Part shown: piece by piece, positions 32,723 through 46,169 of the stretch
How the letters are laid out: the number at the start of each line of letters is the position of its first letter
Numbering within the stretch: position 1 is the stretch's first letter
Source: Glaciimonas sp. PAMC28666
GTDB taxonomy: Bacteria > Pseudomonadota > Gammaproteobacteria > Burkholderiales > Burkholderiaceae_D
Assembly (NCBI RefSeq): GCF_016917355.1
Contig: NZ_CP070304.1
Location: 2,046,001-2,110,000 of the forward strand
Length of the DNA stretch: 64,000 nt
Direction of reading: 5' to 3'
Program-made: the position numbers and the translations under genes
Notes under the pieces: generated by a model
The model's input: the letters and a program-made list of their open reading frames with translations, nothing else
What the model was told of the DNA's origin: nothing
Databases searched by the model: none

Positions 32723-32810
32723 TAGTAACTTAAAAGAAATAATAGACTAAATAGGAGTGAATTATAAGCAATCTACGCGGCGATACAATAGATTTAAATA
32801 ACGGGAGAAA

Positions 32811-33692
32811 ATGATGTTTTCAGGATTCACGCCCCACGTCGCCGACGTCAACGGTACCCATATTCACTTTATCCGCCGTGGGACGGGCCCCGCATTGCTA
32901 TTGCTGCACGGGCATCCGCAGACGCACGTTATCTGGCACAAGGTTGCGCAACAACTGGCAGAACGTTACACCGTGATCGCCGCTGATCTGCGCGGTTATG
33001 GTGACAGCGGAAAACCGGTCGGGTTGCCGGATCACAGCAACTACTCCAAGCGCACCATGGGGCAGGACCAGGTTGATCTCATGGCGACCTTGGGATTTAA
33101 GGAATTCTTGCTGATGGGACATGATCGTGGAGGGCGCGTGGCATACCGCATGGCGCTGGATCATCCGGAAGTTATCCGCAAGCTGGTTGTGCTGGACGTT
33201 GCGCCGACTCTGGCAATGTATGAAAAAACCACGCTGGAATTCGCTACCGCTTACTACCACTGGTTTTTTCTAATCCGACCAGCACCTTTTCCGGAGTTGC
33301 TGATTAATTCGCATCCGGAAGAGTATCTCAAACATACCATCGGTGGCCGCAGTTCCGGCATGGCACCGTTCACACCGGAGGCCTATGCGGAATACCTGCG
33401 CTGCCTGCGCGATCCATTAACGATACACGGGATTTGCGAGGATTATCGCGCCAGTGCCGGAATTGATCTCGACCATGAACGCAGCGATCTGGCGGCCGGT
33501 CGAAAGATCCAGTGCGAAATGCTGGCGCTCTGGGGTGGCAATGGTGTCATTGAAAAATGCTTTGACCCCTTGGCTGAATGGCAACTGTTGGCCAATAAGG
33601 TAAGCGGCAGGGCGCTTGACTGCGGGCATTACATTCCCGAAGACGCTCCAGAAGCTTTGTTGGCAGAAGTGTTGCCATTTTTTGCCAAATAA
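32811..33692 (+). CDS. Alpha/beta hydrolase, fluoroacetate/haloacetate dehalogenase type
   Basis: A 293-aa hydrolase. The nucleophile motif is GHDRGGRVAYRMA, with Asp105 in place of the usual Ser. Arg106 and Arg109 (carboxylate binding), His150-Trp151 (halide binding, in YYHWFF), Tyr212 and catalytic His273 (DCGHYIPED) all coincide with the fluoroacetate dehalogenase active site. The family hydrolyses haloacetates to glycolate through an Asp ester intermediate. Ranking by chain length and motif set makes this assignment strong, but the natural substrate may be another 2-haloacid. A ribosome-binding GGAGA precedes the start; two adjacent ATG codons are possible. Confidence 0.9.
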   Translation: MMFSGFTPHVADVNGTHIHFIRRGTGPALLLLHGHPQTHVIWHKVAQQLAERYTVIAADLRGYGDSGKPVGLPDHSNYSKRTMGQDQVDLMATLGFKEFLLMGHDRGGRVAYRMALDHPEVIRKLVVLDVAPTLAMYEKTTLEFATAYYHWFFLIRPAPFPELLINSHPEEYLKHTIGGRSSGMAPFTPEAYAEYLRCLRDPLTIHGICEDYRASAGIDLDHERSDLAAGRKIQCEMLALWGGNGVIEKCFDPLAEWQLLANKVSGRALDCGHYIPEDAPEALLAEVLPFFAK

Positions 33693-33717
33693 AAAACGCA
33701 TTACTAAGGGGAATAAT

Positions 33718-35160
33718 ATGTCAGGCCGCACGCTATACAGAAAAATGGTGGATTCGCATACCGTCTCTACACTCGACGAACAACATGTATTGTTGTACGC
33801 CGATCTGCACATCATGAACGAATACACGAGTCCGCAAGCATTTAGCGGTCTGCGTGAAAAAGGTCGCACTGTCCTCCGTCCTCGGCAACAGCTCGCGGTG
33901 GTTTCTCACATTATTCCTACGCATCAGGTCGCGAATGCCAATCGGGTCATCTTCGATCCGGCCTCTGCGTTGCAGGCGACCAACTTGAAGCGTAATTGCA
34001 CCGATTTCGGTATCGCGTTGTTTGATACTAACGACGTGGATCAAGGCATCGAACATATCATCGCACCGGAACATGGTTGGATACGTCCCGGCATGGTGGT
34101 TCTATGTGGCGATAGTCATACAACCACGTATGGTGCCCTGGGTGCGCTCGGATTTGGCGTTGGCACGTCGGAAGTAGAACACGTCCTGGCGACGCAGACA
34201 CTGGTCTACCGACTTGCGCAGGATATGCGTATTCAGGTGGATGGTGAACTGCCGGTTGGCACTTCGGTCAAGGATCTGATCTTGTTGATTATCAGCCGCA
34301 TCGGTGCGCAAGGCGCGCGTGGTTATGCAGTCGAATTTTGTGGTTCGACCATCGGCACCCTATCAGCAGAAGCGCGAATGACGTTGTGCAATATGGCGGT
34401 TGAAGCGGGTGCCCGGGCAGCATTGATAAAGCCCGATGCCACCACGCTGAATTACATCAAGGCACACGCTACCAATCTGGATGATGCAAAATTCGCACAG
34501 GCTGCTGATGATTGGCGCGAACTGTATTCTGACGACGATGCAGCGTTTGATCTCCAGTATGATTTTTTAGCCAAAGAAGTTTCTCCCTATGTCACATGGG
34601 GCACCAGCCCGGATCAGGCCATCTCCGTGACAGGGCGTATACCAATGCCGTCTTCCGATCATAGCGCCCCCGATACGCAAAGCGACGCGGTCGCGCAAGC
34701 CTTGCACTATATGGGTCTCGCGGGCGGATCATCGATTTTGGGCTTGCCGATAGATCGGGTATTTATCGGATCTTGCACCAACGGCCGCATCGAAGATCTG
34801 CGCATTGCCGCCGCGATTGTCGAAGGCAAACATATCGCGCCATCGGTGCGCGGAATGGTGGTCCCTGGTTCAGGCGCTGTGCGCCGCCGTGCCGAGGAGG
34901 AGGGCTTGTCGAACATATTTATCAATGCCGGATTTGAATGGCGTCAACCCGGATGCTCGATGTGCCTGGCGATGAACGACGATGTGCTCAATCCCGGAGA
35001 ACGCTGCGCATCGACCACTAACCGAAATTTCGAAGGCCGTCAGGGCAGGGACGGCAGAACCCACTTGATGAGCCCGGCAATGGCCGCTGCGGCGGCACTG
35101 GCAGGCTGCATTACCGATGTTCGCCGTCTGGCAAATAACGTGGAGAAAAATGATGCTTAA
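33718..35160 (+). CDS. 3-isopropylmalate dehydratase large subunit family (LeuC-like)
   Basis: A 480-aa hydro-lyase large subunit of the aconitase superfamily. The 4Fe-4S ligands are Cys353 (GSCTNGR) and Cys413/Cys416 (PGCSMCLAMN), and the catalytic segment is CGDSHTTTYGALG. Compared with canonical LeuC, the usual MDHN-type segment near residue 60 reads VVSHIIPTH, a clear divergence. The start at 33718 follows AAGGGGAA. It is 25 bp downstream of the dehalogenase-like gene and not beside leuB, so it may serve a catabolic hydratase rather than leucine synthesis. Confidence 0.88.
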   Translation: MSGRTLYRKMVDSHTVSTLDEQHVLLYADLHIMNEYTSPQAFSGLREKGRTVLRPRQQLAVVSHIIPTHQVANANRVIFDPASALQATNLKRNCTDFGIALFDTNDVDQGIEHIIAPEHGWIRPGMVVLCGDSHTTTYGALGALGFGVGTSEVEHVLATQTLVYRLAQDMRIQVDGELPVGTSVKDLILLIISRIGAQGARGYAVEFCGSTIGTLSAEARMTLCNMAVEAGARAALIKPDATTLNYIKAHATNLDDAKFAQAADDWRELYSDDDAAFDLQYDFLAKEVSPYVTWGTSPDQAISVTGRIPMPSSDHSAPDTQSDAVAQALHYMGLAGGSSILGLPIDRVFIGSCTNGRIEDLRIAAAIVEGKHIAPSVRGMVVPGSGAVRRRAEEEGLSNIFINAGFEWRQPGCSMCLAMNDDVLNPGERCASTTNRNFEGRQGRDGRTHLMSPAMAAAAALAGCITDVRRLANNVEKNDA

Positions 35161-35779
35161 AAATACGCGTATTGACGGTATAGCCGCGCCGCTGCTGATC
35201 GACAATCTGGACACCGATCAAATCATGCCCAAGCAATTCCTGCGGATCATCGATAAGGCCGGATTGAGTCATGGCGTGCTCTATGATTTGAGATTTACCC
35301 CGGACGGTCAGTTGAAGCCCGGTTTTGTGCTCAATCAAACAGATTTCAAAGACTGCAAATTTCTCATCAGCGGACCTAATTTTGGTTGCGGTTCCAGTCG
35401 CGAGCATGCGGTTTGGGGCTTGCAGCAACTAGGGATCGAAGCAGTGATCGCGCCAAGCTTTGGTGAAATATTTTTCGGCAACGCGCTTAACAATCGCCTG
35501 TTACTGATCGTGTTGCCGCAAGAGCAGATCGCCTTACTGCTTGCAGACAACGCAGCGGGGCAAAGACAGTTGTCGGTCGATCTGGAAAAAATGACGGTGG
35601 GTAACGTCACACAAAGTTTCCGTTTTTCTTTAGCCGATCGCCATAAAAAAATGATCGTGGATGGATTGGACATGGTCGGCGCGACCATGCAATTGCTGCC
35701 TGCGATAGTGGCGTTCGAGAAGAAGCATGACGTCGCTTTTCCCTGGGCTAAAGTAATGCCGTCAGCGGGCTCGCATTAA
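35153..35779 (+). CDS. 3-isopropylmalate dehydratase small subunit family (LeuD-like)
   Basis: A 208-aa swivel-domain subunit partnering the LeuC-like protein. The family segments are LLIDNLDTDQIMPKQFL, GPNFGCGSSREHAVWGLQQL and AVIAPSFGEIFFGNALNNRL. The start is taken at the second of two adjacent ATG codons (35153), which has better spacing from GGAG at 35142 and overlaps the leuC-like stop by eight bases. The overlap implies translational coupling and a fixed subunit ratio. Confidence 0.9.
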   Translation: MLKNTRIDGIAAPLLIDNLDTDQIMPKQFLRIIDKAGLSHGVLYDLRFTPDGQLKPGFVLNQTDFKDCKFLISGPNFGCGSSREHAVWGLQQLGIEAVIAPSFGEIFFGNALNNRLLLIVLPQEQIALLLADNAAGQRQLSVDLEKMTVGNVTQSFRFSLADRHKKMIVDGLDMVGATMQLLPAIVAFEKKHDVAFPWAKVMPSAGSH

Positions 35780-35891
35780 CCACGACCGACAGGACTGCGT
35801 CCTTTTTCATTGAGCGCGTACTAAAAGATTGCACGGCATCCGCCACTTTTAGGTTTCGCGTTAATTATTTGGGTCGTGGGTAGACTTATTG

Positions 35892-35944
35892 ATATTATGG
35901 TATTTTTATTAATGCAGTAATTGCATAATAAAATATCATAATAT
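35892..35944. promoter_or_regulatory. Long AT-rich inverted repeat upstream of the esterase gene
   Basis: Arms of about 23 bp (TATTATGGTATTTTTATTAA... on the left, ...AAAATATCATAATA on the right) flank a GTAA centre, with few mismatches. The repeat ends 27 bp before the esterase ATG. It could be an operator or a leader hairpin. Confidence 0.6.
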
Positions 35945-35971
35945 TAATTATAACGACTACAACGAGACCTC

Positions 35972-37066
35972 ATGCCCCAAAATACGAACCCCATTAACGC
36001 TAAATTCGCCGCTATTTGCGGCGTTACACTCGCGCTGACATTAGCGTTTGCTGCTCCGGTATCGGCGCAGCAAACATCCAGCGTCACGACTCAGCAAGCC
36101 GCATTGATCGCCCGCCCGATGATGATTTCCCGCCAAGGGAGTTTCTTCGTGGGTGGTCACGATATTTTTTCCGATACCCTGTCGACGCTGCCCAACTACG
36201 CCGCCTCCGGAACGGTCACCGTTGACCAAATGTACGTGCATTATCAGGTGCCAGTGAAAGCTAAACCGCTGTCGTTGACATTGATCCATGGCTGCTGTCT
36301 GACCGGTAAGACCTGGGAGTCCACGCCGGACGGACGGATTGGCTGGGATGAATATTTCGTGCGCAAAGGTTATTCAACCTACGTGATCGATCAAGCCGAA
36401 CGCGGCCGCTCGGCAAGCGATATCAGCACCATCAACAGCGTCAAACTCGGCAAAACTGCGCCGTCCCAACTCCCCTCCATATTCGCCGCCGGTCGTGAAG
36501 ACGCCTGGACCATTTTCCGTTTTGGACCCGAATATCAGAAGGTATGGCCCGGCGTTCAGTTCCCGATGGAGGCGCTTGCCGAGTTCTGGAAACAGATGGT
36601 GCCAGACTGGAGCGCCGCGTTGCCGACCCCAAATCCAACCGTTCCCGCGCTCTCTGAGTTAGCGATCAAACTTGGCGGCACAGTGTTGATAAGCCATTCG
36701 CAATCCGGTATCTACCCCTTCCAGGCAGCGGCCATTAACACGCGCGATATCAGAGGCATCGTTGCCATTGAACCGGCGGCGTGCCCGGCGCCGGGCGGTG
36801 ACCTCACACCGTATACGAAGATGCCAACTTTGGTCTTGTTCGGTGATAACGTCGACACATCGCCGCGCTGGTCACCACGGCTCAAGCTTTGCCGTGCTTT
36901 TGTAGAAGCGGCCAACGCCGCTGGCGGCCATGCACAACTGGTGGTTCTCCCTGATCTAGGCATCCACGGCAACACGCATATGTTGATGCAGGACCGCAAT
37001 AATCTGCAGATCGCTGATTGGTTGCTCAATTGGATTGACAAGCATATCGATGCGAAGGCGTCGTAA
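35972..37066 (+). CDS. Secreted alpha/beta-hydrolase esterase
   Basis: A 364-aa exported hydrolase. The signal peptide ends in AFAAPVSAQ. The oxyanion region is LIHGCCLTGKTWES, similar to the bacterial esterase 713 group, the nucleophile elbow is ISHSQSGIYPFQAAA, an acidic residue follows in IEPAACPAPGG, and the catalytic His is in LPDLGIHGNTHMLMQ. The physiological ester is unknown. A 53-bp inverted repeat lies directly upstream and a hairpin directly downstream. Confidence 0.87.
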   Translation: MPQNTNPINAKFAAICGVTLALTLAFAAPVSAQQTSSVTTQQAALIARPMMISRQGSFFVGGHDIFSDTLSTLPNYAASGTVTVDQMYVHYQVPVKAKPLSLTLIHGCCLTGKTWESTPDGRIGWDEYFVRKGYSTYVIDQAERGRSASDISTINSVKLGKTAPSQLPSIFAAGREDAWTIFRFGPEYQKVWPGVQFPMEALAEFWKQMVPDWSAALPTPNPTVPALSELAIKLGGTVLISHSQSGIYPFQAAAINTRDIRGIVAIEPAACPAPGGDLTPYTKMPTLVLFGDNVDTSPRWSPRLKLCRAFVEAANAAGGHAQLVVLPDLGIHGNTHMLMQDRNNLQIADWLLNWIDKHIDAKAS

Positions 37067-37099
37067 AAAGTAAACGTCTGTAAGTAGGCGAGGAGGGCG

Positions 37100-37131
37100 T
37101 TCCAACGCACGAGAAAGTTACCGTGCGTTGG
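37100..37131. repeat. Hairpin with left copy of a 13-bp direct repeat
   Basis: CCAACGCACG and CGTGCGTTGG form a perfect 10-bp stem at 37102-37131, downstream of the esterase gene. The sequence TTCCAACGCACGA at 37100-37112 recurs at 38380-38392, bracketing a 1.28-kb accessory patch. Confidence 0.75.
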
Positions 37132-37263
37132 TGAGACCAGTCTATTAAGCTTACGCTTGAGGCCCCCCTTATATTGGCAACGGGTTTTGATTCTTCGCCA
37201 TTTTTACGATGGCCTTCATTGTCCCGTTGTTGTCAGCTTAGGCTGACCTTATCATGCCGCCAT

Positions 37264-37575
37264 TCAACCACCTTTGCTGCCAGCGCCATCAAGATGGTCA
37301 ATCTTCGCAGCGGCAACCTGCGCCAGCATCTTCAATGTTGTGATCGTCAGTCGCAGCAAGCGGTCAGTGCCCTCAACGTCCAGCACCGGCGTCGTATCGC
37401 TGTCTCGATCCATCGTACTGAAATGCGCCAAATCAACGCAGGTTTGTAAGCCTTGGGAGATATCCTTGGTCAGCGCATAAAACTCCGCAGCCTCATCGTT
37501 TTTATGGGTAGAAGGCAGCCATGTGAAAGCCTGGTGAAGTGCTTCTGGGGACGATTCCGGTGTCGGCTTGCTCAT
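37264..37575 (-). CDS. Small acidic hypothetical protein
   Basis: A 103-aa soluble, helical protein that I cannot assign (HQAFTWLPSTHKNDEAAEFY, VEGTDRLLRLTITTLKMLAQ). GGGGAG lies about ten bases before the ATG. The start overlaps the stop of the next small frame upstream (ATGA), so the two are probably coupled. Pairs of this kind are common in phage- or island-derived DNA of betaproteobacteria. It lies inside the patch bracketed by the 13-bp repeat. Confidence 0.6.
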   Translation of the reverse strand: MSKPTPESSPEALHQAFTWLPSTHKNDEAAEFYALTKDISQGLQTCVDLAHFSTMDRDSDTTPVLDVEGTDRLLRLTITTLKMLAQVAAAKIDHLDGAGSKGG

Positions 37576-37892
37576 GATTTTGCTCCCCGGGTAGGGTGAC
37601 TAACCGAGCGCCGGGAGATTTTTAGTCGGCAGGGTGACATTGAGATGCTATTAGACATTGTGTTTTCTCTTGTGTGGTTGAGCCGCATCCCACTGCAAAA
37701 TGGGGAGGGCGGCAAATGACAAGGTTTGCAGACTGGTACACAAAAGAAATCCAGCAAGCCCGAAAGCTTCCCCGACACCGCCGCCCATTGAGAGCGTACG
37801 AAGACAGCCACACGTAAAAAGACGGCATTGCGCCGTTTGTGCGCTTTTGTGATCTCAGGCTGCAAAACCCGTTCCCCTTTGTGGGGGGACAA
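37572..37892 (-). CDS. Small Icd/Ash-like island protein (tentative)
   Basis: A possible 106-aa frame whose C-terminus (LKISRRSVSHPTRGAKS) resembles the ending of phage- and island-encoded proteins annotated as Icd- or Ash-like. It is coupled by ATGA to the downstream 103-aa gene. A shorter product from an internal ATG at 37661 is also possible. The match is a remembered motif only, so the gene is listed with low confidence. Confidence 0.35.
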   Translation of the reverse strand: MSPHKGERVLQPEITKAHKRRNAVFLRVAVFVRSQWAAVSGKLSGLLDFFCVPVCKPCHLPPSPFCSGMRLNHTRENTMSNSISMSPCRLKISRRSVSHPTRGAKS

Positions 37893-38028
37893 ACGGAGTA
37901 TAGGTCATCAAGGTAACTTCTGTGAAGTCTTGGTCAAGGATCGGCACATAAGAACTGTGAAAACAGCCACTTGCCCGGCTGGGGATTGCTATGCCTGCGA
38001 GGAGACTTGAAGGGAAAGTGAGCACCAA

Positions 38029-38364
38029 ATGACGTATTCAGGTCAAAATTCCTCATCCCGTAATTTGGCCGTTCTGGCCTGGTACTTTAATAAAAAACAA
38101 GCTAAGTTCGTCGCAATTGCATGGACCGACAACGCGTCGGACCAGTATCTATCCTGGCAAAAAGAAGACCCAAAAATCGTTGATGAAATCAATGGTCTCA
38201 TCGAAGAGTGCTTGCGCAATCCCTTCACCGGCACAGAAAAATCAGAACCACTCAAGGGTAACTTGACAGGCTACAGGTCCAGAAGAATTATTAGAGAGCA
38301 TCGTCTTGTTTCCCTCCCGGAGGACAAAGCGATCTACGTGATATCTTGCCGTTTTCACTACTAA
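38029..38364 (+). CDS. Txe/YoeB family mRNA interferase toxin, N-terminally extended, no antitoxin visible
   Basis: A 111-aa protein. From about residue 32 it follows the YoeB fold: WTDNASDQYLSWQKEDPKIV, INGLIEECLRNPF, KSEPLKGNLTGYRSRRIIRE, HRLVSLPEDKAIYVISCRFHY, ending in the catalytic His-Tyr pair. YoeB cleaves mRNA at the ribosome and is normally paired with an upstream YefM antitoxin. The 300 bp upstream contain no YefM-like frame. The first 30 residues (MTYSGQNSSSRNLAVLAWYF) are not part of the usual 84-aa toxin. It may be an orphan, a remnant, or controlled by a distant antitoxin. Confidence 0.8.
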   Translation: MTYSGQNSSSRNLAVLAWYFNKKQAKFVAIAWTDNASDQYLSWQKEDPKIVDEINGLIEECLRNPFTGTEKSEPLKGNLTGYRSRRIIREHRLVSLPEDKAIYVISCRFHY

Positions 38365-38379
38365 CTCTAGGGGCTTACA

Positions 38380-38392
38380 TTCCAACGCACGA
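38380..38392. repeat. Right copy of the 13-bp direct repeat
   Basis: TTCCAACGCACGA here is identical to 37100-37112. It lies 16 bp after the toxin stop and could mark the edge of a small insertion. Confidence 0.5.
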
Positions 38393-38444
38393 ACGATGAA
38401 ATTGGCGCTAATCAGCTAACCGGATCAGCACCCAACCGAATGAT

Positions 38445-38492
38445 GCGAATTTGACGAACAAAATGACGAATGACGAAGTTCGTCAAATTCGC
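38445..38492. repeat. Perfect 15-bp inverted repeat
   Basis: GCGAATTTGACGAAC (38445-38459) and GTTCGTCAAATTCGC (38478-38492) flank an 18-bp centre that itself repeats ATGACGA. It lies in a 265-bp non-coding stretch between the toxin gene and the left attachment site. No T tract follows. Confidence 0.8.
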
Positions 38493-38628
38493 TGGTAGCA
38501 CGTCCGAATTACAGGTTCGCATGTTATTAATTCGCACCACAACGCGCAAGGCCAAGTGCGAACGACGGAATCCTGCACGTTCCCACAAATCTACACAGGC
38601 CCTACATGGAGCGTGGAAGCAGGTCCAT

Positions 38629-38734
38629 AAACAAAAAAGAGCCACAAGCAGAAGCATGTAACTCTTTGATATATATACTCTTTAATGGTGCGGCTGGCTG
38701 GAATCGAACCAGCGACCCTTGGCTTCGGAGGCCA
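38629..38734. repeat. attL: 106-bp direct repeat with a tRNA-Arg 3' fragment and terminator
   Basis: The segment matches 46037-46142 at 102 of 106 positions, with a constant offset of 7408. Positions 38686-38734 are the 3' end of tRNA-Arg(CCG), including the CCA end, on the minus strand; the rest includes its terminator. The anticodon-stem 5' half and acceptor 5' half are missing, so this copy is not a functional tRNA. Confidence 0.93.
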
Positions 38735-38860
38735 TGAAATACTTGATTTATGGGCGTTGATTGACAATCATAAAATATGGTATTTCCTTAAAAATCAATC
38801 ACTTATAAAATTAACGTTATGAATTGTGTTGATTGATATTGCTTGATATACTCCAAATTG

Positions 38861-38881
38861 GGTTACATGGCGGTTACATGG
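38861..38881. promoter_or_regulatory. Tandem 11-bp repeat, putative integrase arm site (left)
   Basis: GGTTACATGGC is followed directly by GGTTACATGG, 127 bp inside attL and just upstream of the integrase start. A matching pair occurs at 45998-46018 near attR. Paired direct repeats near both ends resemble arm-type binding sites of tyrosine integrases. Confidence 0.55.
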
Positions 38882-38903
38882 AGTGCATGGGAGCGTTTGA
38901 GCG

Positions 38904-40247
38904 ATGGCAAAGGTAAATTTTACGGCTGGTCGAATTGCTGAATTTAAATGTGAATCTGGCAAGGGTCAAACTTTCTTGTGGGATACGTCTGCACCGGGTT
39001 TGGGACTGCGAGTAACGGCTAACGGTGCCAAAGCGTACATGTTCCAAGCCAAATTAAACGGTCAAGCGATGCGCATTACTATCGGCTCACCGGCAACTTG
39101 GACAATTGACGCGGCACAAGCAGAAGCCCGACGCCTGAAAGTAATCATCGACAACGGTCTAGACCCGCGTCATGTGAAAGCTGACGGACTGGCCGCAGCG
39201 CAATCGGTTCGAAAGGCAACGGAAACCCAAAAAGCCACCCAACTAAGCCTAGAGGTAATTGCGCAGGCTAAGCGCGAATTAATTGGGCGAGCCGCTTGGG
39301 ATACTTACATGACCGCACCGCACCCAAAATGGGGAGCACAACACCGCACGGACCATATCATTGCAGCGAATGCCGGTGGCGAGAGGTGCAAAATAGGCGA
39401 GAAGATAGCGAAAGCCGCGCCACTTGCTGCGCTGCTGGCCAGGCCGTTACATGAAATTACCGCGCCCGTGGTGCTGGAGTGGCTTGCACATGAATGCCAA
39501 ACCCGCCCTACATTTGCACATAATTCCTTTCGGAAGTTCCGAACCTTTATTCGGTGGTGCGCAAAGCATCCAGAGTTTCAATATGCGGTACATGCTGACT
39601 GCTGCGTTACGGAAGAAGTAAAAGACATAGTTCCCGGCAGCAAGACAAAAGAGGGCGACTGCCTGCAACGGGAGCAGCTGCCCGATTGGTTTGCCGCCGT
39701 GCGTAACATCGGAAGCCCTGTTATCAGCGCCTACCTGCAAGCCTTATTGATAACGGGTGCGCGTCGGGGGGAACTGGAAATAATGAAATGGGACGATGTA
39801 GATTTCAAGTGGAACAGCATTACTATTCGTGACAAGGTAGACGGCTTGCGGACAATTCCATTAACGCCTTATTTATCCCATTTGCTGACTGCATTGCCGC
39901 GCCGCACTGAATGGGTCTTCAATAGCCCTACGGCAGCCAGTGGGCACATTACAGAACCACGCATAGCCCATACCCAAGCGTTACAAATTGCAGGCTTACC
40001 ACACGTCTCATTGCATGGCTTGCGCCGTTCGTTCGGTACACTTTCCGAATGGGTGGAGGTGCCGACCGGAGTTGTTGCACAGATTCAAGGTCATAAGCCG
40101 AGCGCATTAGCTGAAAAACATTACCGCCGCCGTCCGCTGGATTTACTGCGCATGTGGCACTTCAAAATAGAAGCATGGATATTAGAACAAGCCGAGATAC
40201 ACTTTGTTCCAGTGGTCCCCGGCTTACGGGTCGTTACCGCCGCCTGA
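38904..40247 (+). CDS. int: Tyrosine-type site-specific integrase
   Basis: A 447-aa integrase of the tRNA-island type. An N-terminal DUF4102-like arm-binding region (WDTSAPGLGLRVTANGAKAY) is followed by a core-binding domain and the catalytic domain. The catalytic residues are seen as Arg in LITGARRGELEIMKW, His-x-x-Arg in SLHGLRRSFG, His in IQGHKPSALAE and the nucleophile Tyr in KHYRRRPLDLL. It starts 170 bp inside attL and reads away from it. GGGAG precedes the ATG, and the tandem GGTTACATGG repeats lie in its promoter region. Confidence 0.95.
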   Translation: MAKVNFTAGRIAEFKCESGKGQTFLWDTSAPGLGLRVTANGAKAYMFQAKLNGQAMRITIGSPATWTIDAAQAEARRLKVIIDNGLDPRHVKADGLAAAQSVRKATETQKATQLSLEVIAQAKRELIGRAAWDTYMTAPHPKWGAQHRTDHIIAANAGGERCKIGEKIAKAAPLAALLARPLHEITAPVVLEWLAHECQTRPTFAHNSFRKFRTFIRWCAKHPEFQYAVHADCCVTEEVKDIVPGSKTKEGDCLQREQLPDWFAAVRNIGSPVISAYLQALLITGARRGELEIMKWDDVDFKWNSITIRDKVDGLRTIPLTPYLSHLLTALPRRTEWVFNSPTAASGHITEPRIAHTQALQIAGLPHVSLHGLRRSFGTLSEWVEVPTGVVAQIQGHKPSALAEKHYRRRPLDLLRMWHFKIEAWILEQAEIHFVPVVPGLRVVTAA

Positions 40248-40360
40248 TAATAAACAAACAGTTTAAAGCGCCAGTCTCAGTTTTAGCGGACGAAAAACCG
40301 GAAACCTTCGCCGGTCCGACTGGTGCCCCATTTAAATGAAGGCGCTTGAAGGAGCGCAGC

Positions 40361-42697
40361 ATGAACATGAGCAATCTTTTTGACCGCACTCAGGCGCATT
40401 TCTACCCGACCAATATTTCTGACACTGTTTCAACCGAGAATGAGAAAAAATTAGCTGTCGAGCGGCGCAAGTTAGGACGTTATCGGCTAGATGAAGCTGC
40501 TTTTTATATAAGTGATGTGGGCGGTGAGCGTATAAGCGAAATTACCGAAAAATTAAAGAGTGTAGTGCAACAAGGATTGATTGACGCCTACGAGCCAGGT
40601 CGGAAGCAAAAGTACAGATTCGGTCCGAAAAGCATAGTACGTTTTTTTTACGAGGAAGTTTATTGGGATGGCCTCAATAAATGGCTTAGTGAAAGTGAGC
40701 CAAAAATAGATTGTAGATTTTGGCCGCCTATCGGTAATGAGCAAGAAGATGACCGCGTAGTAGTAGAAGATTTGGCCGTGGAAATTTCTGAATTGCAAAC
40801 AGAAAACTTTAGCCAAAGGTGGACAAAATATGCAGACGATGACTCTATGAGTCGGACAATTCAAACGACACTAAATAAAATAGGGCAACCATCCGAACAC
40901 CTGCCGGGCGTTCGACCGCATATCTTGAAAATGATAGAGCTCGGGGAACTCAAAGTTTTTAGCTCGCGAAATGGACTGCCGCCGGAGCATGGGTGGGACA
41001 TAACGGACAATTTAGATAAGTGGTATATGTCCCGGAGCGATGCCGAGAAAGTAAAAACTTCGCTCAGTGCCCTGCTTGGGAATAACGAATCCATATTTGT
41101 GCCAGCACTCCCCACCGAACCTATATTGCAGCGGCTTCCGGCACAGCTTTTCGGTGAAGGATTTAGCGAGACAGCACAAAATCTCACAACACTTTCAAAA
41201 TACATTGCGCATGAGACTTGGACGCCGATAGAGGCCGCTTTACTGGTTTGCGGTATTCAACCGGCTCAGGATTGCACCGAAATTCCGAACGGCGGGATGG
41301 GCCTTGATAATTGTTTCCATATGGGAAATGAAGATGCATTCCATGATGCTCGACGGATTTTAAAGCTTTGGAATGCTCGAATGAATCCGCCCTCTAAGGT
41401 CCGCCCCGCTGATTTTCTCGTGTGGTGCAAGACCTATGACAATAACCTTCTTTGTAAAATTAATACTGATTGGTTGAGCGAAATTGCCGAGATGCAGAAC
41501 GCAGCGTCTTCCTTGTCAATTGCCCAAACAGAAGAAAAGTATAAAAGTGGAACACTTGTTATTGCCCTTGGTAACTATTTAGAAACGCCGCTAGATGGAC
41601 TGCCTTATAACCTGCGCGGGAGAGTTCGCCGGGCTTTTTTACGGTATCCGTTTGGGGGTGGGGAATGGGAGGAGCTTAGCTCGGACCAACGCCGCCAAGC
41701 AGCTGTTGCTTGGGATGATGCGCACTCACCAGAAAATGAACTGGAGCATTCATATTGGTTCAATCTTGGGGCGAGTATAAGCGCGATAGAACAAAGAATT
41801 ACAGCATATGAGCTCACAAATCATAATGGTATTCCGAGCGAGTTGTATAGAAAGGAAAAAGAGATAAGTGCATTGACGGCCGAATTGAGCGAACTCCAAA
41901 AGCTTTGGAAGTTGCCGCCATTTTCAGACGGCGCAACAAGGACAGAAGAAAAAATATGTTCGATAACGCCTTCAGCTACTTCGCCGGAATTGTCTATAAA
42001 GAATTTTCCGAACAAGGGCGCAGTATCGTCCAATTTAGGCGGTCATGATGTTGCTATAACGGGCAATGCTTTCGTGCCTTTAGGAGCGGCAGCTGAGTTC
42101 TTGGCTTACGAGCAGTGGGGGGAAGAAGCTCCGAATTTAGAGGCTTTAGCCATAATGAAACTGCGCTATCTTGAGGCCGACGCCGGAGTATTTACTCCTG
42201 TAGCCGCTATACGAGCTATTACTGCATCTGAAATACAGCGAAATATTGACTCACTAGTTGCAACTAATAAATTGCCACTATACAACCCACTTACTTATGC
42301 ACCGACTCAAAATCCTGATGGCGCTTTGGTTAATCAATCAAATTTAACTGCGCTAATTATGGCGGGGGAGCATTTGGCTGGTTTTTCCAGTCACCCAGCA
42401 TCGGCAGTGCCACAAGCAGTGTCCGCAAGTAATTTGGTGCCGCCTAATCTAATTATAAGACCGCTACAAAGAGCAGCAGCGCAGAATGCTGCCATCTTGG
42501 CCGAAATTAAGTTTCTTGGACTTTCCGCTATGAAATTGCCGAAACCGCCATCCGGTAAGTCTGGAACAAAAAAAGCCGTACGTATATCTATGATGGAGCG
42601 GGATGTGAAGGGCTATCTCAAAACATTTGTGAGCCAGAAAGTTTACGCGACAAGTTGGCAACGCCTGCGCGACAGCGGTGATATAGGGGAGGTGTAA
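40361..42697 (+). CDS. Large protein of unknown function in the mobilizable element
   Basis: A 778-aa protein I do not recognise. No Walker A, nuclease or primase motif is evident. Residues 35-105 look like a winged-helix or adaptor region (LDEAAFYISDVGGERISEIT, GPKSIVRFFYEEVYWDGLNK). A segment near residue 285 reads HETWTPIEAALLVCGIQP. A heptad-like stretch follows at about 500-525 (YRKEKEISALTAELSELQKL), and the C-terminal third is rich in Ala, Asn and Pro before a basic end (KSGTKKAVRISMMERDVKGY). AAGGAG fixes the start at 40361. It is A/T-rich relative to the flanks. It lies between integrase and mobilization genes and could be a replication, maintenance or defence function; none can be shown. 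Confidence 0.85.
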   Translation: MNMSNLFDRTQAHFYPTNISDTVSTENEKKLAVERRKLGRYRLDEAAFYISDVGGERISEITEKLKSVVQQGLIDAYEPGRKQKYRFGPKSIVRFFYEEVYWDGLNKWLSESEPKIDCRFWPPIGNEQEDDRVVVEDLAVEISELQTENFSQRWTKYADDDSMSRTIQTTLNKIGQPSEHLPGVRPHILKMIELGELKVFSSRNGLPPEHGWDITDNLDKWYMSRSDAEKVKTSLSALLGNNESIFVPALPTEPILQRLPAQLFGEGFSETAQNLTTLSKYIAHETWTPIEAALLVCGIQPAQDCTEIPNGGMGLDNCFHMGNEDAFHDARRILKLWNARMNPPSKVRPADFLVWCKTYDNNLLCKINTDWLSEIAEMQNAASSLSIAQTEEKYKSGTLVIALGNYLETPLDGLPYNLRGRVRRAFLRYPFGGGEWEELSSDQRRQAAVAWDDAHSPENELEHSYWFNLGASISAIEQRITAYELTNHNGIPSELYRKEKEISALTAELSELQKLWKLPPFSDGATRTEEKICSITPSATSPELSIKNFPNKGAVSSNLGGHDVAITGNAFVPLGAAAEFLAYEQWGEEAPNLEALAIMKLRYLEADAGVFTPVAAIRAITASEIQRNIDSLVATNKLPLYNPLTYAPTQNPDGALVNQSNLTALIMAGEHLAGFSSHPASAVPQAVSASNLVPPNLIIRPLQRAAAQNAAILAEIKFLGLSAMKLPKPPSGKSGTKKAVRISMMERDVKGYLKTFVSQKVYATSWQRLRDSGDIGEV

Positions 42698-42821
42698 CCC
42701 TCCCTCTGCCAAACCATCCCTGTAAAAGCGGGATACCGGTAGGGTTGCGAGGGAGGATAGTTCTAAAAATAAAGTGACTTCCAGAGCGAATTACATTGAT
42801 TCGCATAACTTGGAAGTTACT
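42696..42821. promoter_or_regulatory. Structured intergenic region, candidate oriT or translational control site
   Basis: This 125-bp gap contains CCTCCCTC (42699-42706) with GAGGGAGG (42749-42756), AACCCT with AGGGTT, ATCCC with GGGAT, the palindrome TACCGGTA, and a nested repeat: AGTGACTTCCA (42773-42783) and TGGAAGTTACT (42811-42821) around GCGAAT/ATTCGC. The last arm contains the GGAAG ribosome-binding site of the next gene. Its position just upstream of the relaxase operon fits an oriT, an operator or both. Confidence 0.6.
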
Positions 42822-42822
42822 T

Positions 42823-42990
42823 ATGACCACTGAACAACTAGCCGCAGAACTCCACCTTAAAGCGCAGTCTATCCGTAAACGTTTCTGCGAAACAGGTGCC
42901 TATTACTGCCTGCGTCCCGTCAAGCTGCCAAATCGACGCCTTGTATGGCCCGCCGATTCAATCGCGCTATTAAGCGAGGCGTCCATATGA
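42823..42990 (+). CDS. Small helix-turn-helix protein
   Basis: A 55-aa DNA-binding protein of the MerR/AlpA-like small helix-turn-helix type (TTEQLAAELHLKAQSIRKRF, then CLRPVKLPNRRLVWPADSIA). Proteins of this kind serve as excision directionality factors or regulators in integrative elements. It opens a run of four genes that each overlap by four bases. The start lies two bases beyond an inverted repeat that contains its ribosome-binding site. Confidence 0.75.
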   Translation: MTTEQLAAELHLKAQSIRKRFCETGAYYCLRPVKLPNRRLVWPADSIALLSEASI

Positions 42991-43466
42991 CAAACGCCCC
43001 CATCACCAATAGTAATGAGAGCGCCCCTGATGAGCGTGACTATAACTTGCCGGGAAGTTTGCCGAATCGAAAAAACACAGTAACGGCCGCCGTATTGGCT
43101 TGCTTGTTGGAGTCTTCCCATCTCACCGGAATGGAATCGGTTTTCAAGCAAAGCACTACACGCCTTAGTGCTGTAATCCATTATCTGGAACGTGACTATT
43201 GCTGGAATATTGACCGGCGCGATATTGTGACCGGCACCAGCGATGGCCGCATTGCTTCCATTACCACCTACTGGCTTTCGCAAACGGCAATTGCCCAGGC
43301 ATTCGAAACCGGCGCACGTCATTGGATTGATAAAGTAAACGCCGCACGCGCTGCACGTCGCAAGCAATCGGATAAATGCAAGGCCGACGCAGCCCGTCTG
43401 AATACCTGCCGCAAGCAATTCAAAAGCCATGACCCGCGCCAAGGTGGATTGTGGGGCGATATATGA
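42987..43466 (+). CDS. HTH_39-like winged-helix protein
   Basis: A 159-aa basic protein. Residues 28-75 match the pattern of helix-turn-helix family HTH_39 (TAAVLACLLESSHLTGMESV, STTRLSAVIHYLERDYCW), and the C-terminal half is helical and Lys/Arg-rich (KVNAARAARRKQSDKCKADA). It overlaps both neighbours by ATGA. A role as relaxosome accessory or regulator is inferred from its place before the relaxase gene. Confidence 0.7.
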   Translation: MTNAPITNSNESAPDERDYNLPGSLPNRKNTVTAAVLACLLESSHLTGMESVFKQSTTRLSAVIHYLERDYCWNIDRRDIVTGTSDGRIASITTYWLSQTAIAQAFETGARHWIDKVNAARAARRKQSDKCKADAARLNTCRKQFKSHDPRQGGLWGDI

Positions 43467-43570
43467 GCCATACCAAGCTGGATTTAATCAGTAGCGTAAT
43501 GGCGCTGGTATTGCTTGAACTAGGTTTCCTGGTGCAGGTGCTTTGCGTGACCGCGTGGGGTGGCGTATGA
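43463..43570 (+). CDS. 35-aa single-pass membrane peptide
   Basis: A short frame beginning MSHTKLDLISSV with one hydrophobic helix (MALVLLELGFLVQVLCVTAW). Start and stop overlap the upstream and downstream genes by four bases each (ATGA), which is strong evidence that it is translated. Function is unknown; a membrane link for the relaxase is one possibility. Confidence 0.7.
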   Translation: MSHTKLDLISSVMALVLLELGFLVQVLCVTAWGGV

Positions 43571-44691
43571 CACACGCCCAATTTTTGCGAATCAAAAAGC
43601 TGACTGGGAAGGCCATTATTCAGGTCGCCGCCAGGCATAACCACCGTGAGATAGTGGCCGAGTTGGGAGCAGGTTCTGACAGCCACATAGACCCCGCCCG
43701 GACATGCGCCAATATCGTGTTGAGCGGGCCTGAATCCGCATCAGGCGTGGCAGCACTGGCACAGGGACTACTCGACAATTCAGGCGTCAAGGCACTTCGT
43801 AAGGACGCTGTACGCGGGCTGGAAATAATTATCAGCTTGCCGCCTGAATCGTCAATAGACCACCTGCGATTTTTTGTTGATGCGACTCGATGGATAGAGC
43901 GATACTTTGAAGCGCCAGTTATCAGTGCCATCATTCACAACGACGAAGCTGCGCCACACTGCCATGTGCTGCTGCTGCCATTGGTCCATGGAAGGATGGT
44001 TGGTAGTGATTTGATGGGAGGCCGGGCCAAGCTGCTAGACATGCAAGCTAACTTTCACGCGCAAGTAGGGCAGCGGCATGGCTTGACACGGCAAGCATCA
44101 CAAAAGCGGCTGAGTCCGGCGATACAGCGACAAGCGATAGATTCAGCGTTCGATGTGCTGAAAGCGAATAGCGGGCTAAATAGCACCTTGCTGCGCGTAT
44201 TACTAGAAGCGCATCTACACAATCCTGAGCGGCTATTGCTGGCGATGGGTTTAGATATGCCGAAGCCGAAAGTAAAAGGCACATTCGCAGGAATCATGAC
44301 CAAGCCATGTAAGCCAGAAAAGCCTATAGGGTTTGGTAAGAAGAAGCCTATAGGGTTTGATGATGTTGCGGCACCAGAAAAAGAGCAAACCCTATCCTGT
44401 GTAGGGTTCGGCATTTCAGCGCAGCCAATTTCACCAGTAATCGAACTGCATTCAGCGACCATGAACAGGAACGCGACCGTAGCACCGGAGCCACAGCCAA
44501 CCGATACAGCAGAAGGCGACTATGTGCGAGAGCGTGACGATGACAAGGCAGCCGTTTATTGGGACGAATCGCGCGGGGAGTTCATCAAGCAGACGGTCAA
44601 GGCATCCTGCAAGCCTTCGATAATTGCTTCGGTCCGTGTCGCGCTGGAAACAATCGAGAGACACGGCAGCATACCTGTGATGCGATGCTGA
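43567..44691 (+). CDS. MOBV/Pre-type relaxase (plasmid mobilization/recombination protein)
   Basis: A 374-aa protein whose N-terminal half has the Pre/MobV layout. An opening motif (FLRIKKLTGKAIIQVAARHN) is followed by HNREI-type segments and the three-histidine metal motif HNDEAAPHCHVLLLPL (His124, Asp126, Glu127, His131, His133). MOBV relaxases nick oriT and lead strand transfer. The C-terminal half carries a twice-repeated KPIGF segment and is poorly conserved. It is the fourth gene of the coupled operon. Transfer would need a helper conjugation system. Confidence 0.85.
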   Translation: MTHAQFLRIKKLTGKAIIQVAARHNHREIVAELGAGSDSHIDPARTCANIVLSGPESASGVAALAQGLLDNSGVKALRKDAVRGLEIIISLPPESSIDHLRFFVDATRWIERYFEAPVISAIIHNDEAAPHCHVLLLPLVHGRMVGSDLMGGRAKLLDMQANFHAQVGQRHGLTRQASQKRLSPAIQRQAIDSAFDVLKANSGLNSTLLRVLLEAHLHNPERLLLAMGLDMPKPKVKGTFAGIMTKPCKPEKPIGFGKKKPIGFDDVAAPEKEQTLSCVGFGISAQPISPVIELHSATMNRNATVAPEPQPTDTAEGDYVRERDDDKAAVYWDESRGEFIKQTVKASCKPSIIASVRVALETIERHGSIPVMRC

Positions 44692-44824
44692 CGACCCGAA
44701 ATAGACCAAAGCAATTTGGCTGACATTTATCGTCCGCCGGTCAGCACAATGGGAGTTTCCAGACCAATACGCGCACGCGCGCGAGGGCAATCACAATATC
44801 TCAGACCGTCAGATTGGGCAGACC

Positions 44825-45130
44825 ATGGGCCGCACTTCATTACTTACCGCAGACCAGTGGCATGAAATAACCCTGCGTTTGCTTAATTTTGAGTCATGCC
44901 GTGCTCTGGGCCGAGAGTTCGGCCTCTCTGAGGCCGCAATCCGGAAGCGGTGCAGTGAGCGAAACAGGGAGATAAGAATCGTTGCCAATATGCTTTGGGA
45001 GGTTCATCAAGCGTTTAAGGCGCTTCCCCTGGCGGCTCAGGTTTCTGTTTATAAGCGGGTGGCAAAGTTAAAAAGAATTGGCAAAGTTGGACCGACGGCA
45101 GGTCAGGCAATGGTAGCCACCAGCAGGTAG
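44825..45130 (+). CDS. Helix-turn-helix protein of unknown role
   Basis: A 101-aa protein with an N-terminal helix-turn-helix (LLTADQWHEITLRLLNFESC, ALGREFGLSEAAIRKRCSE) that resembles the DNA-binding domain of phage terminase small subunits or resolvase-like proteins, and a basic helical tail (VSVYKRVAKLKRIGKVG). It follows the relaxase gene by 133 bp. It could regulate the element or assist recombination. Confidence 0.7.
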   Translation: MGRTSLLTADQWHEITLRLLNFESCRALGREFGLSEAAIRKRCSERNREIRIVANMLWEVHQAFKALPLAAQVSVYKRVAKLKRIGKVGPTAGQAMVATSR

Positions 45131-45761
45131 CCAGTCTTGTAGCCATGGAAATAGTAGTTACCAAACAGCCGGTTACCACGGTATGAGGGGAAATAACCTC
45201 GCACTAACTGCGCACATACCGCCGCATAAAGCCGAACGTTTTTAAACGCCTGCAGAACTATCGTTTCATAGGTAAATACCGAGGAAAACCCGCTGAAATT
45301 TCTCAACTATAAAGCCGAATAACGGCGCACTTTTCTGCGAATAGGTGCGCACTGGGGCCGATACCGGAATTACTGTATCGAGAAACATTTGGTCTGCCTC
45401 GCGCTAGTCTGCAGCCAAGCACGCACCCGCAACGCGCAATGCAAAGCGAGGACAAGGCTGGTGTGCACTTCGTTGGTTCGCACCAAGGTTCGCACCTCAA
45501 CGCGAGGTAACAGGTGCAAACCAAACCCAGCGACGCATATGTCTGGTAACAGGTAAATAACAGACAGAGCGCCTGAGAACAATGAAATAACAGCGAGAAA
45601 ACAGCAAATCCCGGTTACGCAGCACTTGGTACGCACCGGAATGGGTGTATAGGAAAGTTGGTATCCACCCAGGTATCCACGGTATTGCAAACTTTATTTA
45701 AATGATGGCAAATTAGATAGGCAATGTCACACTGCATAAAAATAATTCACTCAGGGAATAT
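45131..45761. other. Non-coding right end of the element
   Basis: This 631-bp stretch has no supported gene. It contains CGATAC/GTATCG (6-bp inverted repeat near 45360), the direct repeat GGTTCGCACC at 45475-45484 and 45487-45496, and repeated GGTAACAGGT and TAACAG motifs around 45508-45590. Such iterated motifs could serve an origin or regulator binding. Confidence 0.5.
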
Positions 45762-45965
45762 ATGAAGAAATTAATGAATGTTTTATTGCGAAATCCCGAC
45801 CGTATCTTGAAAATCTTTCAGATTGCCGCTCTGCTGTGGATAGGGCTGGAATTACACGGCTTAGCACGCAATGTATATTCAGGTCCGGGTCCTGATGATG
45901 GTGTAGATTTAACGCAGGTTGAAGAACAGCTGGGACGCATAGTTAAAGCTATTAACTTGAAGTAA
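45762..45965 (+). CDS. 67-aa membrane protein of unknown function
   Basis: A short protein with a basic N-terminus (MKKLMNVLLRNPDRILK), one hydrophobic segment (IFQIAALLWIGLELHGLA) and an acidic tail (PGPDDGVDLTQVEEQLGRIV). AGGGAA precedes the ATG. It is the last gene before attR. Confidence 0.65.
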   Translation: MKKLMNVLLRNPDRILKIFQIAALLWIGLELHGLARNVYSGPGPDDGVDLTQVEEQLGRIVKAINLK

Positions 45966-45997
45966 CGGCAAGTTTGGTGGGCTGATTTTACAAATCG

Positions 45998-46018
45998 GGT
46001 TACACAGCGGTTACATGA
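45998..46018. promoter_or_regulatory. Tandem 11-bp repeat, putative integrase arm site (right)
   Basis: GGTTACACAGC followed by GGTTACATGAA, the counterpart of 38861-38881, lies 18 bp inside attR. Confidence 0.5.
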
Positions 46019-46036
46019 AGCGATGCAGCTGTTAGA

Positions 46037-46142
46037 AAACAAAAAAGAGCCACAAGCCTAAGCATGTAACTCTTTGATTTATATACTCTTTACTGGTGCG
46101 GCTGGCTGGAATCGAACCAGCGACCCTTGGCTTCGGAGGCCA
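46037..46142. repeat. attR: 106-bp direct repeat overlapping tRNA-Arg
   Basis: This is the right copy of the attachment repeat. It spans the tRNA-Arg terminator and 49 nt of the tRNA 3' end up to the anticodon loop. The four mismatches with attL all lie outside the tRNA. Confidence 0.93.
46041..46076 (-). terminator. Terminator of tRNA-Arg
   Basis: Read on the minus strand, AAAGAG and CTCTTT enclose a GC-containing inner stem (ACA/TGT, GC/GC) followed by a T6 tract. A near-copy is present at attL. Confidence 0.8.
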
Positions 46143-46169
46143 ATACTCTATCCACTGAGCTACAGCCGC
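46094..46169 (-). tRNA. tRNA-Arg (anticodon CCG)
   Basis: A complete 76-nt cloverleaf with encoded CCA. The acceptor stem pairs GCGGCTG with CAGCCGC, the D-loop is AGCTCAGTGGATAGAG, the anticodon loop is CTCCGAA and the T-loop is GGTTCGATTCC. It decodes CGG. The 3' part was supplied by the integrated element. It is the insertion target. Confidence 0.97.

Follow-up and report, generated by a model that had tools for sequence, protein, structure and literature searches.

A 7,408-bp element integrated at the tRNA-Arg(CCG) gene of Glaciimonas sp. PAMC28666 carries an integrase and a MOBV-type relaxase and, taken as a whole, is very probably a mobile, canonical MOBV-type integrative mobilizable element (IME) built on a widespread RNA-led chassis. 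The element lies in a window of 64,000 nucleotides (the whole stretch of DNA that was analysed; contig NZ_CP070304.1, positions 2,046,001 to 2,110,000), and positions given below are those of the window. Its gene set is a variant of that of known IMEs. The unusual parts are the position of a candidate origin of transfer (oriT) at the 3' end of the relaxase gene (mob) and a variable gene slot led by the int-alpA RNA (RF02996), both of which are visible by comparison only. The original prediction had proposed a mobilizable element of about 7.4 kb in this tRNA gene, with an integrase, a relaxase and no secretion genes. That description holds, and the assignment as an IME is strengthened by the oriT candidate. 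The int-alpA RNA, the oriT candidate and the tandem arrangement of the site had been overlooked. As to the claim that this is the best candidate for a new system, the gene set is of a known kind, and the unusual features are the oriT position and the RNA-led slot.

Between its attachment (att) cores, the element encodes on the plus strand the integrase, the int-alpA RNA, a protein of 778 amino acids (aa), a 55-aa protein in the alpA position, a 159-aa protein, the relaxase and two small open reading frames (ORFs).

The relaxase and its candidate oriT

A profile built from ten relatives of the relaxase matches the structure of MobM (4lvi, 7.2e-29) with the HN.R and H.DE..PH.H motifs of MOBV relaxases aligned. 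Nine residues (H24, I41, N49, H124, D126, E127, H131, H133 and P138) are invariant among 10 aligned relaxases. By these matches and that to Pfam Mob_Pre (Table 1), the protein is a divergent MOBV-type relaxase that falls outside the NCBIfam MobV equivalog. Within the host's order, 10 of 399 genomes (the host's own included) contain the relaxase, and so does one further contig (L027, Oxalobacteraceae UBA6018; 60% identity), the sole relative from the scan of genome contigs. PF01076 has one match in the whole genome.

The oriT candidate was chosen by comparing the DNA of the element with eight relatives of the relaxase locus, where conservation extends past mob over a short segment. Six of the 399 order genomes (own included) contain its core 15-mer, with a single copy in each, and the reversed 15-mer occurs in none of the 399. 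In all six cases the exact core sits at the 3' terminus of mob, whether as a gene, a fragment or a remnant. Five of the six genomes hold the relaxase (G000, G028, G054, G115 and G243), which in G115 is split into two gene fragments at contig ends, one of them with a stop. In the sixth genome, G353 (L209, around 1501), part of an integrase is followed by a 3' remnant of mob and an intact motif; this locus is a deletion remnant, an island that may keep its oriT without a relaxase of its own. Independent support comes from the rarity of the 15-mer elsewhere and from the finds in contig 25 of G115 (L034) and in G353, both of which were outside the initial comparison.

The motif follows mob or its fragment in L029, L030 and L034; in the window, L027 and L028, mob has a longer 3' end that contains the motif. 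The arms of the hairpin change together in L027 and L034 with the loop unchanged, and L033 (G116) has different arms and retains CCTGTG. Similar palindromes precede the motif in the window and in L027, L028, L030, L033 and L034. A look-alike with 3 mismatches is present in L036 (G049), and the motif was not found in L031, L032 or L037, nor in L035, a locus that ends at a contig end. In the controls, the 21-mer with up to 5 mismatches occurred 0 times in 437,318 bases (both strands counted) of 21 other loci, and inverted repeats of this kind enclosing a loop with TGTG at its end numbered 10 in 1.79 Mb. In viral contigs the 15-mer was found in 13 stretches, none accompanied by this relaxase.

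The nick is predicted between 44401 and 44402 (TCCTGTG/TAGGGTT) by analogy with pMV158 and IMESag-rpsI. Published MOBV nick sites read TAGTGTG/TTA and TAGTGCG/TTA, with inverted repeats around the nick and the oriT upstream of mob, as given in the accessible parts of two papers (PMC5090054 and PMC5863519). Two other regions were set aside as oriT: the inverted repeat at 42770-42826 (the short motif common to relatives beyond coding homology sits at 44388) and the right-hand region at 45131-45761, which has no match in the eight compared relatives at E 0.05.

The int-alpA RNA as a probable leader

The ORF of the 778-aa protein starts 19 nt past the end of the int-alpA RNA. RF02996 matches were found in 83 of the 399 order genomes (80 over the cut-off) and in 36 of 274 class genomes (35 over the cut-off), and in none of 14 controls. 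Among 84 RNA loci, drawn from the 104 RF02996 matches listed, 79 have an ORF of at least 90 aa starting 5-40 nt behind the RNA, and in 72 the distance is 16-24 nt. Randomly placed positions within these loci gave 787 of 2,520. In a hold-out set from other orders, 17 of 19 loci have such an ORF within a wider window.

The structure line of Rfam contains three stems only (cmscan). Beyond these, the loop of stem P3 is complementary to two segments, an AAGG-like decoy (SD1) at the end of the RNA, upstream of the ribosome-binding site, and the ribosome-binding site itself (SD2) in front of the slot gene. In a set of 77 leaders (76 of the 84 loci plus L027), compared with shuffles that leave locus relatedness in place, the loop can form at least 5 Watson-Crick pairs with SD1 in 63 (shuffled mean 29.1), with SD2 in 60 (34.9) and with both in 51, and the observed pairing was reached by 0 of 2,000 shuffles for SD1 and 0 of 2,000 for SD2. 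The arms of the SD2 hairpin are paired in 48 of the 77 leaders versus 19.3 when shuffled. In a hold-out of 19 of the 49 matches listed (those given a locus, minus L193, which is of the same order), crude first windows gave 12 of 19 with 154 of 5,000 shuffles as good, and windows transferred from the first alignment gave 12 of 19 with 0 of 10,000. With start-anchored windows (18 of the 19 loci), SD2 pairing was found in 13, again with 0 of 10,000 shuffles. That the P3 loop can pair either with the decoy or with the ribosome-binding site is supported by covariation. Pairing with SD1 and pairing with SD2 are mutually exclusive, as both use the one loop, and the arrangement is therefore read as a switch. 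We consider it reasonably probable that the int-alpA RNA is a translational switch acting as a 5' leader, not a free small RNA (sRNA), and that it guards a one-gene slot refilled with varied, AT-rich and mostly unclassified proteins in islands of many proteobacteria, whether satellite-like or relaxase-bearing.

The variable gene slot

The slot is refilled faster than the integrase and the alpA-position protein diverge. Among 48 loci in which integrase, slot protein and alpA-position protein are all present, integrase identity reaches 60% or more in 19 pairs; the slot proteins are similar in 1 of these 19 pairs and the alpA-position proteins in 17. An integrase was recognised in 58 of the 84 RNA loci, and a protein matching the alpA profile lies within 400 nt after the slot ORF in 64 of 78, of which 41 match Pfam Phage_AlpA at E 0.001. 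The GC content of the slot gene is below that of the integrase gene in 55 of 56 loci, by a median of 8.5 points, and the alpA-position gene differs by 1.8 points. In the window, the GC content is 0.49 for the element, 0.52 for both flanks, 0.46 for the 778-aa gene and 0.52-0.53 for five other genes.

Slot ORFs range from 93 to 778 aa (median 224), that of the window being the longest. Its gene makes up 39% of the coding sequence of the element (2,337 of 5,964 nt), less than the half that had been claimed. The 79 slot proteins fall into 70 full-length families, and a scan of 80 (with L027) found 12 Pfam families at E <=0.01, each in one protein. Many related slot proteins share segments of about 60-150 aa at differing relative positions; likewise, five segments of the 778-aa protein are matched in different partner proteins, at differing relative positions. 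Outside its own copy, the whole protein gave piecewise matches only, in 8 other genomes of the 399 and at a second site in its own genome, and it has no match in plasmid or phage records. The genome holds a second int-alpA RNA locus (L040, G000:C1:681000-700999). Its slot protein, of 376 aa, has module A in common with the 778-aa protein, and no integrase was recognised upstream.

AlphaFold models the 778-aa protein as confident segments split by disorder (mean pLDDT 65.9, pTM 0.33), and module A alone as a predicted strand-helix-helix-strand-strand-helix (mean pLDDT 74). Kinship of the slot modules with the alpA set was rejected (hhalign probability at most 2%). Against PADLOC, the 80 slot proteins matched 21 models, each matched by one protein, with a best E of 2.9e-8 (homing endonuclease); TIR and Pycsar models gave 1.5e-4 to 5.4e-7. 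Fast exchange and low GC content would fit an accessory gene engaged in conflict with phages, hosts or rival elements, a role that is offered as a guess falling somewhat short of probable.

Integration at tRNA-Arg(CCG)

The ends of the element are marked by a direct repeat of 106 nt (38629-38734 and 46037-46142; 96% identity), the copies of which lie 7,408 bp apart. Probes of 20 and 34 nt from this repeat, with up to 3 mismatches, found just those two sites in the window, where shuffles expect none. Taking the whole repeat as exact tRNA-derived boundaries, as was originally done, gives the correct unit length and assigns 57 bp too many to each end: the att core proper is 49 bp at 100% identity, all of it inside the tRNA. 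A perfect 49-bp repeat, of the same length, is found in the tRNA-Phe of the relative L033. The likeness between the repeat copies continues outward past the 106 nt, to 38585 and to about 45990, because the DNA to the left of the left copy is apparently the right end of another, older element; positions 38585-38734 are 86% identical over 154 nt to the right end of the present element. The remaining 57 bp of the repeat thus look like the right end of an older tandem element and not like part of the att site. Pairs of repeats similar to the arm-type repeats of the element are present at both ends of L027 and L029.

The tRNA is present in all four other genomes of the genus; to its right, three of them match the window at 86-89% identity and the fourth at 76%. 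In G402, sequence resembling the right end of the element (90% over 175 nt) lies to the left of the tRNA without the element, and the next gene ends about 300 bp from the tRNA. G399, G400 and G401 differ to the left of the tRNA; inspection by eye shows arm-like repeats in G399 and G400. The tRNA-Arg site seems to be used repeatedly by integrating elements.

To the left of the island, a C4 antisense RNA (60 bits) is encoded on the minus strand at 37701-37792, with a sub-threshold isrK-like match and a YoeB-type toxin gene nearby; this region (37701-38364) is perhaps the remains of a P4-like or older element. The approximately 7 kb at 31800-38600, in which a LysR-type regulator, hydrolases and leuC/leuD-like genes were recognised by eye among the ORFs, found no match, the att region at its right end excepted, in the 17-19 kb beside the same tRNA of the four other genomes, and may belong to an older integrated region.

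Related elements and the need for a helper

Four relatives share the gene order of integrase, alpA-position gene and this relaxase: L033 (tRNA-Phe, 4.5 kb, repeat 100%), L029 (tRNA-Met, 5.3 kb, repeat 90%), L028 (tRNA-Ser, 5.1 kb, repeat 78%), the integrase of which is just distantly similar, and L027 (9.8 kb, reaching the contig end, repeat 75%), for which no tRNA was found. Across these loci the target tRNA differs and the module of integrase, alpA-position protein and relaxase is kept. The int-alpA RNA is present in L027 and L033 and absent at the gathering threshold in L028 and L029. Proteins downstream of the slot in int-alpA loci (69 scanned) include DUF927 in 15, Toprim_3 in 14, AAA_25 in 11 and PriCT_2 in 9. 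One int-alpA chassis seems to be common to satellite-like and relaxase-bearing islands.

No secretion genes were recognised among the seven ORFs of the element scanned against Pfam, NCBIfam and PHROGs, the coupling protein being sought through these family scans alone, and no replication gene was recognised in family scans of the ORFs. An IME does not have to carry its own replication gene. Mobilization would need an incoming helper; of 60 genomes searched as relatives, the host's own among them, 10 contain PF03135, the VirB4/TrbE-type ATPase, for example G402 of the same genus.

Table 1. Positions of the element's genes, RNA and DNA sites in the window, with the evidence for each
Feature	Position	Strand	Evidence
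Right-end arm sites and terminator region of the apparent older tandem element (outside this element)	38585-38685		86% identity over 154 nt; same-genus site alignment
Left attachment core (displaced 3' part of tRNA-Arg)	38686-38734		100% identical to 46094-46142 (49 bp)
Left arm-type repeats (GGGTTACATGGCGGTTACATGG)	38854-38883	+	87% match to 45991-46020
Tyrosine integrase, 447 aa	38904-40247	+	Pfam PF00589 (Phage_integrase) 2.5e-11 and PF13356 (Arm-DNA-bind_3) 3.6e-10, above cut-off
int-alpA RNA (RF02996), leader of the next ORF	40269-40342	+	44.2 bits (gathering 35.8)
P3 loop CCTTC; SD1-like decoy GAAGG	40305-40309; 40338-40342	+
Small hairpin GCGCT-TGAAGG-AGCGC, ribosome-binding sequence GAAGG (40348-40352) in the loop	40342-40357	+	read from sequence
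Slot protein, 778 aa, modular	40361-42697	+	no Pfam, NCBIfam or PHROGs match better than E 0.1
Inverted repeat, long, imperfect, before the small DNA-binding gene; possible operator	42770-42826	+	RNA fold -23.1 kcal/mol
alpA-position protein, 55 aa	42823-42990	+	matches counterparts of L029 (3.7e-11) and L033 (2.1e-4) and the iterated profile
159-aa protein	42987-43466	+	relative in L027; weak PHROGs matches alone, best E 0.0032
Relaxase, 374 aa	43567-44691	+	Pfam Mob_Pre 64.3 bits (cut-off 25.5), 1.7e-17
Two iterons (AAGCCTATAGGGTTTG) upstream of the oriT hairpin	44320-44359	+	exact repeat, spacing 24
oriT candidate AACCCTA-TCCTGTG-TAGGGTT	44388-44408	+	inside mob 3' end; predicted nick 44401/44402
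101-aa protein, weak helix-turn-helix matches	44825-45130	+	Pfam HTH_50 E 0.019, below cut-off; PHROGs terminase small subunit E 0.023
67-aa ORF	45762-45965	+	no family match (Pfam, NCBIfam, PHROGs)
Right arm-type repeats	45991-46020	+	match left arm repeats
Right attachment core, within tRNA-Arg	46094-46142		49 bp
tRNA-Arg(CCG), intact	46094-46169	-

Proposed mechanism

The tyrosine integrase, with the arm-type repeats and probably the alpA-position protein, would recombine the 49-bp cores to form a 7.4-kb circle. The relaxase would bind the iterons and the hairpin, which lie in the 3'-terminal part of mob itself, cut at TCCTGTG/TAGGGTT and guide the strand to the conjugation channel of a helper; mob would enter last. 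The int-alpA RNA leader may control translation of the slot gene as its loop pairs with the upstream decoy or with the ribosome-binding site. The slot itself is refilled with different, AT-richer proteins, which may serve as accessory conflict genes or as element-specific DNA-binding regulators.

Weighing the alternatives

Several results weigh against the reading of a mobile MOBV-type IME with an RNA-switched slot. Excision, nicking and transfer are predictions from the sequence. The relaxase scores 76.8 bits against the NCBIfam MobV equivalog, below its cut-off of 100, so the MOBV relaxase of the original prediction is upheld by Pfam Mob_Pre and the MobM profile and not by that model. The exact oriT core is present in 5 of the 10 relaxase genomes, with other arms in G116, a look-alike in G049 and none in 3, and the Fisher value for co-occurrence of relaxase and 15-mer (1.8e-8) is not independent because the motif was picked from relaxase loci. 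PF03135 has no match in the whole 5.23-Mb genome, which leaves no resident helper of that type, and Mob_Pre was found in 0 of the 68 other int-alpA loci whose longest downstream protein was scanned (L033, which has one, is outside this set). The 55-aa alpA-position protein has no match to Pfam Phage_AlpA (PF05930) and is among the non-matching proteins of its set. For the slot protein, Foldseek gave no match at E 0.001, either with the whole model against PDB and BFVD or with module A against PDB. The relatedness of loci left in place by the shuffles may inflate the loop counts, SD1 and SD2 are alike in sequence so that the two loop tests are not independent, and in the start-anchored hold-out (18 of 19 loci) the results for SD1 (9; 237 of 10,000 shuffles) and for the hairpin (11; 228 of 10,000) are weaker.

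That the island is decayed and immobile, with relaxase and integrase as relics, is quite improbable. In favour of decay, the older element of the same array is reduced to its right end, by the probes used, the G353 locus has collapsed to part of an integrase and the mob 3' end, and no PF03135 helper gene was found in the genome. Against it, the present element has its seven named ORFs open and its att cores identical over 49 bp, and it retains the oriT hairpin as well as those residues that do not vary among relatives of the relaxase. Primase- and helicase-type genes in other int-alpA loci (DUF927, Toprim_3, AAA_25 and PriCT_2), weak PHROGs matches of the 101-aa ORF to a terminase small subunit (E 0.023) and of the 159-aa ORF to a virion protein (E 0.068), and the variable genes adjoining the integrase known in P4-like satellites (PMC8628076, in the part available) would suit a phage satellite that has the int-alpA chassis, travels in capsids and uses its Mob_Pre protein for replication or recombination instead of transfer. 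This is very improbable, since no primase, large terminase or capsid match was found among the scanned ORFs, the oriT hairpin is linked to the relaxase and the slot protein is unmatched in phage records. Rfam types the int-alpA RNA as 'Gene; sRNA', and were it a free trans-acting sRNA, the ORF start behind it would be incidental; the ORF starts 16-24 nt downstream in 72 of 84 loci and the co-variation of the RNA loop with the ribosome-binding region make this unlikely. It is possible, if rather doubtful, that the slot ORF is not cargo and that its product serves the element as a dedicated DNA-binding regulator or as a directionality factor. Its place between int and alpA, the predicted strand-helix-helix-strand-strand-helix of module A and weak Foldseek neighbours that include winged-helix regulators (best E 0.16) point that way. 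As a set, though, slot proteins are not basic (median pI 7.1 versus 9.8 for integrases and 10.2 for alpA-position proteins), their profiles gave no match to the alpA set, and a conserved integrase and AlpA would not be expected to have a partner that turns over more quickly than themselves.

Comparison with known systems

Canonical IMEs with MobV relaxases include Tn5520, Tn4451, Tn6215, ATE-1 and IMESag-rpsI, as listed in a 2017 review (PMC5704250); according to the available part of this review, none of the IMEs described in Proteobacteria is canonical, and the MobV IMEs in that part are from Bacteroidetes, Firmicutes and Actinobacteria. The titles and opening lines of abstracts returned by a literature search contained no MOBV IME in Proteobacteria. 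Like those elements, the present one has its own MobV relaxase, has no recognised coupling protein or mating-pair genes and is integrated in the chromosome; it differs in its Burkholderiales host and in a candidate oriT at the 3' end of mob. The relaxase profile matches MobM of pMV158 (MOBV1), the oriT of which likewise has a G/T nick flanked by inverted repeats, with TGTG/T as its context, as seen in the accessible text of PMC5863519 and PMC5090054. In pMV158 the oriT is upstream of mob, whereas here the candidate is inside or just after the mob 3' end, with other arms and the loop TCCTGTG. The best matches in the plasmid collection are MobV relaxases of Paracoccus plasmids (6 records; about 31% identity over 47% of the protein), which are plasmids and not islands.

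The RNA belongs to the RF02996 family and lies between int and the alpA position; what is added here is evidence for a role as a 5' leader, with two alternative loop pairings and a variable ORF behind it. In the portions of the literature available, 'int-alpA' is merely listed where it is named, and 'RF02996' was not found; the original description of the family lay outside the search. P4-like satellites resemble the element in having int, alpA and a variable region beside int, and they have a defence hotspot between int and psu, as described in the consulted portion of PMC8628076. The present element differs from them in lacking a primase match among the scanned ORFs, in having a relaxase and an oriT candidate, and in a slot that takes one gene; no individual searches were made for psu, delta, sid and cos.

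Implications

The module of a relaxase and its specific hairpin would provide a testable mobilization route for proteobacterial islands for which the sources describe no transfer route. The oriT motif may serve as a DNA signature by which such islands are found, even a remnant that holds the motif with no more of mob than its 3' end. For an RNA family with little literature among the sources, the comparison yields a specific hypothesis, that of a switch in front of a gene slot, and it allows slot proteins to be collected by position and not by similarity.

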